DNA from: Brevundimonas sp. Root1279
GTDB lineage: Bacteria; Pseudomonadota; Alphaproteobacteria; Caulobacterales; Caulobacteraceae
Length of the DNA stretch: 64,000 bases
Assembly: GCF_001425945.1 (NCBI RefSeq)
Contig: NZ_LMEB01000006.1
Location: forward strand, 248,001 to 312,000
Direction: 5' to 3'
Made by a program: the position numbers and the translations under genes. Below, piece after piece: positions 23,786 to 24,388 of this stretch. The number at the start of each line of letters is the position of its first letter. Within the stretch, counting starts at the first letter, position 1. Under the pieces are notes generated by a model, which was not told where the DNA came from, ran no database searches, and saw only the letters and a list, made by a program, of their open reading frames with translations.

Positions 23786-23862
23786 TTGGCGACCCCGGCA
23801 GGACTCCAACCTGCGACCTCGGCTTTAGGAAAGCCTTGCTCTATGCAGCTGAGCTACGGGGC
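23786..23862 (-). tRNA. tRNA-Arg (anticodon CCT)
   Basis: Read on the minus strand: acceptor GGCCCCG/CGGGGTC, D-stem GCTC/GAGC, anticodon stem GGCT/AGCC with loop TTCCTAA (anticodon CCT), T-stem GCAGG/CCTGC, and an encoded CCA end (plus-strand TGG at 23786-23788). Length is 77 nt with CCA. The T-loop TTGGAGT departs from the usual TTCGANT. It reads the rare AGG codon. Confidence 0.93.
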
Positions 23863-23987
23863 CACGCAGGGGCTGACCTAGCGGCTCGGAGCGCGCGGGG
23901 GAAGCGGGCGCGGCAGCGAAATCGGAGCGCCAGGAGCGACGGAGGGCGGAACGCCCCGTCCTCGTCTCCGCCGACACCTGTGGATCG

Positions 23988-24117
23988 TTGTGGTTAATCG
24001 TCCTTAAGATACAACATCTTGTAGGGAACAAAGGCCGAATCGCGGCATGTAAGTGATTCGATCCTGATTCGTTTCGCCCCTGTTCCGGCGCCCAAGCTGC
24101 GCTGTTTACGGCTCTCG
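23988..24117 (+). repeat. Tandem promoter/leader module, copy A
   Basis: Order on the plus strand: TTGTGG (23988-23993, -35-like), 16-bp spacer containing TTAA-N6-TTAA, TACAAC (24010-24015, -10-like), then GGGAACAAA and GANTC sites at 24037, 24055 and 24066. CGAATC and GATTCG can pair across a 13-nt loop. It ends with CTGTTTACG (24102-24110). Copy B, 214 bp downstream, matches closely; a 1-bp indel occurs near 24092. Promoter function is inferred. Confidence 0.75.
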
Positions 24118-24201
24118 CGCGCGACGGATCGACCCGCCCCCGACACGCCGTGATCCGAACCGGGAGGCCTTGTCCCGACCGCGCGCCGGAACTGCTCTGG
24201 C

Positions 24202-24332
24202 TTGCGGTTAATAGATCTTAAGATACAATATCTTGTAGGGAACAAATCCCGAATCGGGCCGTGTCGGCGATTCGGTCCTGATTCGTTTCGCCCCCGTTCC
24301 GGCGCCTCAAGCTGAGCTGTTTACGACTCGCG
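24202..24332 (+). repeat. Tandem promoter/leader module, copy B
   Basis: The same order as copy A: TTGCGG (24202-24207), 16-bp spacer with TTAA-N6-TTAA, TACAAT (24224-24229), GGGAACAAA, GANTC at 24251, 24269 and 24280, and CTGTTTACG (24317-24325). The CGAATC/GATTCG stem is kept although the 13-nt loop sequence differs. It ends about 57 bp before the helicase ATG, so an RNA from here would give a ~150-nt leader. Confidence 0.75.
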
Positions 24333-24388
24333 GAAATGCGCAGGCGGCGCTTGAGGAACCCGGTGGGAACAGCCACCTTTTCAGCATC

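Follow-up and report, generated by a model that had tools for sequence, protein, structure and literature searches.

The 64,000-nucleotide stretch of Brevundimonas sp. Root1279 studied here (hereafter, the window) carries two copies of a GANTC-rich element of ~100 bp upstream of a Suv3-type RNA helicase gene. The element is conserved across the Alphaproteobacteria, is linked to this gene, survives where the linkage is lost, bears a YGAKTCG motif at its second GANTC site (site 2), and occurs together with GcrA. We consider it probable that it represents an ancient promoter and initial transcribed region of the Suv3 helicase gene, marked by GcrA and CcrM and able to persist as a separate non-coding RNA (ncRNA) unit; promoter activity, transcription, recruitment and action of GcrA, cell-cycle timing, and control of the helicase are each what we infer. 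Such a class-wide element with a Suv3 partner appears to be undescribed in the open literature searched, which covers few subscription journals.

The two copies form an ungapped direct repeat (23988-24092 and 24202-24306; 90 of 105 positions identical, 86%) with an offset of 214, as a previous sequence-only reading of the window had claimed, and are followed by a second repeat block (24093-24117 and 24308-24332) with 88% identity. A genome-wide search returned exactly two copies, both at this locus, which rules out a dispersed repeat or mobile element. An initial search of 61 related genomes was positive in 36, almost all from the same genus, with one copy each. The distribution was then resolved with three DNA models free of helicase sequence (R1; R2, built from the family; and R3, combined). 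R1 detected the element in 211 of 219 Caulobacteraceae genomes (20 of 22 genera), usually as a single copy, and in 69 of 75 genomes of a Caulobacter-like genus (g32). R2 gave weak matches in two further families of Caulobacterales, f3 and f5, and BLAST with sequences from these families confirmed the element in 26 of 60 f3 genomes and in three f5 genomes. Finally, R3 identified it in 41 of 385 genomes sampled across the Alphaproteobacteria.

Since most genomes have one copy, the pair in the window is a local tandem duplication of a single element, and the duplication is not its defining trait. Independent tandem copies were also seen elsewhere: two genomes (G285 and G288) carry pairs ~210 bases apart, close to the 214 in the window, G166 has a pair 761 bases apart, and G291 has three copies on one short contig. 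Diverged second copies in two genomes (L208 in G081, L209 in G105) keep GAACAAA and site 2, and lack GANTC sites 1 and 3. A recent duplication without function would fit the lineage-limited occurrence of the pair and the drift of copy A from the consensus, and may describe the extra copy; for the element itself it is refuted, as single copies are conserved class-wide together with the same partner gene, and we give this explanation next to no weight.

The models held no helicase information, yet in 30 of 36 loci outside the Caulobacterales the helicase motif GPTNTGKT follows on the same strand, ~165-635 bases downstream of an invariant GAAC of the element. Most f3 and f5 loci likewise have the helicase downstream on the same strand. 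Conservation upstream of Suv3-like genes in relatives, on which the sequence-only reading had staked its proposal, was thus found, and the link is ancestral and class-wide. Within the Caulobacteraceae the distance varies. It is ~200 bases in many Brevundimonas and 0.6-2.3 kb or 12-13 kb in others. Caulobacter-like and Phenylobacterium-like genomes have element and helicase 1.8-7 kb apart, with 1.8-6 kb in most of the Caulobacter-like ones and 7 kb in G153, and the orientation is the same throughout. In G247, the element (105 bits) and the helicase are >2 Mb apart, and no helicase was found near L200, L224, L231, L258, L263, L266, L270, and L278. The element is therefore conserved independently of its neighbors, as a stand-alone small RNA (sRNA) would be. 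Where it is kept kilobases or megabases from the helicase it is no longer the leader of that gene, which excludes a helicase-only leader as the whole account.

Other neighbors are less constant. The tRNA gene that the sequence-only reading placed beside the repeat, tRNA-Arg(CCT), adjoins the element in a few scattered lineages (L151, L155, L159, and the window) and is not a general partner. An acyl-CoA-dehydrogenase-like gene, named by eye, lies divergently upstream in L247, L250-L253, L256, and L262, which belong to several distant families and include small AT-rich genomes. In L251 and L252 (family f14), the classical DnaA box is matched perfectly by TTATCCACA, ~50-70 bases upstream of the element.

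Conservation was assessed in alignments of 87 Caulobacteraceae rows, 17 f3/f5 rows, and 36 distant loci. From GAAC, present in 87/87 Caulobacteraceae rows and nearly invariant class-wide, to the last GTTC, the spacing is almost gap-free across the class. Site 2 reads YGAKTCG, with only T or C as first base, in 87/87 Caulobacteraceae, 17/17 f3/f5, and 35/36 distant rows, counts that are somewhat inflated, a first point against our interpretation, as the rows were picked by models that reward the motif. These models rewarded sites 1 and 3 too, so the contrast of site 2 with them is informative: site 1, a GANTC, is present in 79 and site 3 in 84 of the 87 Caulobacteraceae rows, and class-wide only site 2 is retained, as YGATTCG in 35 of the 36 distant loci. 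The GAGTC found at site 2 in f3 (L229/L230, L236) is permitted by YGAKTCG, the published extended GcrA motif (quoted in PMC7987155). GcrA is encoded in 47 of 48 element-bearing genomes tested and in the genome of the window. Site 2 lies at ~+30 from the predicted start, within the ~40 bp and in the YGAKTCG context that mark GcrA/CcrM targets. A -10-like CNANAT stands ~14 bases upstream of GAAC in most groups (71/87 Caulobacteraceae rows) and is kept class-wide.

Within the spacer of the putative promoter, TTAA-N6-TTAA, which the sequence-only reading had likened to CtrA half-sites, is a Caulobacteraceae feature (69/87 rows); f3 has TTAC-N7-TTAACC instead, and the distant loci showed nothing of the kind. 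The full CtrA site, TTAA-N7-TTAA, is absent from both copies and from the Caulobacteraceae rows, where the spacing is six, and a spacing of seven occurs only in f3. A role of CtrA is unproven.

Published data on Caulobacter crescentus offer a probable counterpart. The ncRNA CCNA_R0116, with its transcription start site at 757263 on the minus strand, is the only ncRNA in its table with three CcrM sites; it has one CtrA half-site and a GcrA peak, and is expressed in S phase, reaching 793 reads at 60 min from an initial 11 (PMC5988900). The strongest GcrA peak of C. crescentus in chromatin immunoprecipitation sequencing (ChIP-seq), CCNA_00697, has three GAnTC sites; GcrA binds this site in vivo only if CcrM is present, and methylation increases its affinity in vitro (PMC3667746). 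The predicted start of the element has exactly three GANTC sites within +50, and in G152 the element lies at 764 kb on the minus strand, compared to ~757 kb for CCNA_R0116 in NA1000. Colinearity of the two genomes is inexact (FGase at 994 kb), and position alone was therefore not taken as proof. In four genomes groES lies 10-16 kb from the element, which we assume to agree with the Caulobacter gene numbers. From the features and the rough position, we regard it as very likely that the C. crescentus ortholog is CCNA_R0116 at CCNA_00697. The relevance of GcrA and CcrM, as suggested by the sequence-only reading, is borne out by the near-ubiquitous site 2, by the co-occurrence of GcrA, and by the rank of this presumed ortholog as top GcrA ChIP-seq target (PMC3667746). 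No locus or sequence feature given in the papers on GsrN, CcnA, the SisA-D family, or RusT matched the element, and these were rejected as its identity.

On this basis we propose that the unit comprises a sigma-70-type promoter, a start region, and ~60 bases of initial transcript with a GANTC in YGATTCG context. Ancestrally, it lay just upstream of the Suv3-type helicase gene and probably drove it. In the Caulobacteraceae, it would have gained two more GANTC sites and the TTAA boxes in the spacer, and in many of these genomes other genes have come between unit and helicase; its most likely present form in C. crescentus is the ncRNA gene CCNA_R0116. The CcrM-methylated site of the initial transcribed region could hold RNA polymerase with GcrA, by which output would be tuned to the cell cycle, and the CtrA-type boxes possibly repress in G1. 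Of the two copies in the window, B is probably the one that drives the helicase, and A would add a second start.

Several further points weigh against this interpretation. The main weakness comes from published mutants, which speak against a role of the GANTC sites in setting promoter strength in C. crescentus: a P_CCNA_00697-lacZ fusion was 100% active with all GAnTC sites mutated, and GcrA depletion lowered activity by only 31% (PMC3667746). The methylation sites may thus not control the promoter, and gating of promoter activity by GANTC is doubtful. The cell-cycle gating considered by the sequence-only reading is plausible only through the published S-phase expression of CCNA_R0116 (PMC5988900), and a dependence of the promoter on GANTC is contradicted by the published CCNA_00697 reporter (PMC3667746). 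Furthermore, the predicted transcription start is upstream of the GcrA sites, no extended motif emerged from a GcrA study in B. subvibrioides (PMC7987155), and the identity with CCNA_R0116/CCNA_00697 was drawn from features and rough position and not from a sequence match in NA1000. Possibly the GANTC sites affect a later step, or they are conserved for the sake of the RNA.

The sequence-only reading had taken a CGAATC/GATTCG pairing as selected structure. Complementarity of the paired segments is indeed found in almost every row (93-94% of cells). There was no compensatory change at this pairing beyond shuffled columns, and as these pair equally well, the pattern reflects invariance and not covariation. 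An exhaustive covariation scan of 74 class-wide rows yielded no pair that exceeded its null, so that the covariation expected across relatives received no support, and neither did three named helices; a 5' hairpin overlapping the -10 gave one suggestive pair that shuffles did not support. Sequence-level constraint, by a protein or a linear RNA motif, explains the data, and a selected fold is possible but not shown. The element matched no Rfam family. A coding region was rejected because most rows have stop codons in every forward frame; two reverse frames are largely open, over 71 bases only.

These results bear on whether the helicase mRNA has the element as its cis-acting 5' leader, an attenuator or autoregulatory device in which the 5' GAAC would pair with one or the other of two downstream GTTC copies spaced 11 bases apart. 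High conservation and complementarity are seen for GAAC and the two GTTC blocks, and the helicase is close and on the same strand in 30/36 distant loci. However, the number of pairs matches that in shuffles, the variable pair 44-84 (A3 numbering) shows A/G and C/T in independent combinations, and the element is conserved with the helicase kilobases or megabases away, which makes a leader improbable.

Somewhat more credible, while still well behind the promoter unit, is a gene for a trans-acting sRNA. Here, the binding region of the RNA and not the DNA sites would be conserved, and the helicase link would be ancestral baggage or reflect cooperation of RNA and helicase. Persistence apart from the helicase (G247, several Brevundimonas, L200, L258, L263, L266, L270, L278), the retention of the transcribed core without sites 1 and 3 in the paralogs L208 and L209, a conserved block that extends well past GANTC, and the annotation of the presumed C. 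crescentus counterpart as an ncRNA (PMC5988900) agree with it. Against it stand the absence of an intrinsic terminator downstream in more than 80 of the 87 Caulobacteraceae regions, the lack of covariation and of an Rfam match, and the absence of CCNA_R0116 from the Hfq-enriched sRNA list (PMC11005374). To a form of this explanation we assign the same limited plausibility: a class-wide alphaproteobacterial ncRNA would have been born at the GcrA/CcrM-marked Suv3 helicase promoter and act in trans, perhaps on or with the helicase, and so survive separation, its DNA being also the strongest Caulobacter GcrA site.

Alternatively, the element could be mainly a protein-binding DNA site, anchoring GcrA or a repressor such as LexA, and not serve the expression of a particular gene. 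GTTC-N7-GTTC has the geometry of the alphaproteobacterial SOS box. It was found in 11 of 36 distant loci (0.05 in shuffles), 45-59 bases after GAAC, and GAAC-N7-GAAC in 8 of 17 f3/f5 loci; moreover, the strongest GcrA peak goes with a small reporter effect (PMC3667746). In contrast, GTTC-N7-GTTC occurs in none of the 87 Caulobacteraceae rows, which therefore lack a LexA (SOS) operator of this form, a promoter-like -10 is co-conserved, and the presumed counterpart is transcribed in C. crescentus (PMC5988900). We judge such a site unlikely as the whole function, on a par with the leader, and retain the promoter unit as the preferred explanation.

The features in the window are summarized in Table 1. 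TTGYGG, the 16-bp spacer to TACAAY, TTAA-N6-TTAA, and the GANTC sites (24037/24055/24066 and 24251/24269/24280) all lie where the sequence-only reading had put them. The -10 is better read as CNANAT than as TACAAY, and the 5' ends predicted from it (~24022-24025 for copy A, ~24236-24239 for copy B) fall a few bases downstream of the 24017-24022 and 24231-24236 previously proposed. The window contains 89 GANTC sites where shuffles predict 287, a depletion of about threefold, and seven sites between 24037 and 24329, i.e., in ~300 bases, therefore stand out. Likewise, YGAKTCG occurs 21 times compared to 66 expected, 7 of these inside the element stretch. The depletion agrees with the published avoidance of GANTC in Alphaproteobacteria (PMC3973325). 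The repeat is flanked by the tRNA-Arg(CCT) gene (23787-23863, minus strand) on one side and the helicase gene on the other. Between copy B and the helicase start, a terminator-like GGTGG-GAACAG-CCACC-TTTT (24362-24381) was not seen in the relatives scanned; CTTGAGGAACC (24350-24360), upstream of the helicase start, is kept in many Brevundimonas and, tentatively, resembles a GGAAC-type -35.

Table 1. Coordinates of the element copies, their conserved features, and the downstream helicase gene in the window.
Feature	Position	Strand	Remarks
Element copy A	23988..24092	+	More diverged copy; R1 score 96 bits; 86% identical to copy B
Copy A -35-like TTGTGG	23988..23993	+	TTGTGG in 69/87 family rows
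Copy A TTAA-N6-TTAA in promoter spacer	23994..24007	+	Both TTAA in 69/87 Caulobacteraceae rows
Copy A -10 as CNANAT (CAACAT)	24012..24017	+	Putative promoter function
Copy A GAAC	24026..24029	+	Invariant; predicted among first transcript bases
Copy A GANTC site 1	24037..24041	+	Caulobacteraceae-specific position
Copy A site 2 YGAKTCG (TGATTCG)	24054..24060	+	Near-universal GcrA/CcrM-type site
Copy A site 3 YGAKTCG (TGATTCG)	24065..24071	+	Caulobacterales
Copy A conserved GTTCC	24082..24086	+	
Copy A downstream GTTWAC box	24104..24109	+	Fixed distance; kept in Caulobacteraceae
Element copy B	24202..24306	+	Nearer family consensus; R1 score 107 bits; helicase-proximal
Copy B -35-like TTGCGG	24202..24207	+	
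Copy B TTAA-N6-TTAA in promoter spacer	24208..24221	+	
Copy B -10 as CNANAT (CAATAT)	24226..24231	+	Putative promoter function
Copy B invariant GAAC	24240..24243	+	
Copy B GANTC site 1	24251..24255	+	
Copy B site 2 YGAKTCG (CGATTCG)	24268..24274	+	Near-universal site
Copy B site 3 YGAKTCG (TGATTCG)	24279..24285	+	
Copy B conserved GTTCC	24296..24300	+	
Copy B downstream GTTWAC box	24319..24324	+	
Suv3-type RNA helicase gene, 828 aa	24389..26875	+	Pfam DEXQc_Suv3 E 3e-29, plus Helicase_C

GcrA regulons have been described as extensively rewired, even from Caulobacter to Brevundimonas (PMC7987155). If our interpretation is true, this regulatory system would have a rare constant in a class-wide GcrA-type site whose ancestral partner gene is fixed. 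It would also explain the odd top GcrA peak of C. crescentus as a non-coding transcription unit with GAnTC sites in its transcribed part, and the uncharacterized helicase with its detachable regulatory unit would provide a test case for GcrA action downstream of the start.

Among known systems, the GcrA/CcrM target CCNA_00697 (Fioravanti 2013, PMC3667746) shares the three GAnTC sites with the element, and its GcrA binding is strong and CcrM-dependent; unlike in the present account, neither class-wide conservation nor a Suv3 link was reported for it. CCNA_R0116 (PMC5988900), which was only listed there and is the presumed ortholog, resembles the element in its minus-strand location near 757 kb and in the sites around its start. 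CcnA (CCNA_R0094, PMC8959179) is similar as a cell-cycle-regulated Caulobacter ncRNA with CtrA-type sites, but is transcribed from the chromosomal origin, whereas the locus of the element is elsewhere and unrelated. The GcrA-activated promoters of mipZ, podJ, and tipF have, like the element, a methylated site of the YGAKTCG type near the start; they lose activity upon GAnTC mutation, whereas the CCNA_00697 reporter did not (PMC3667746).
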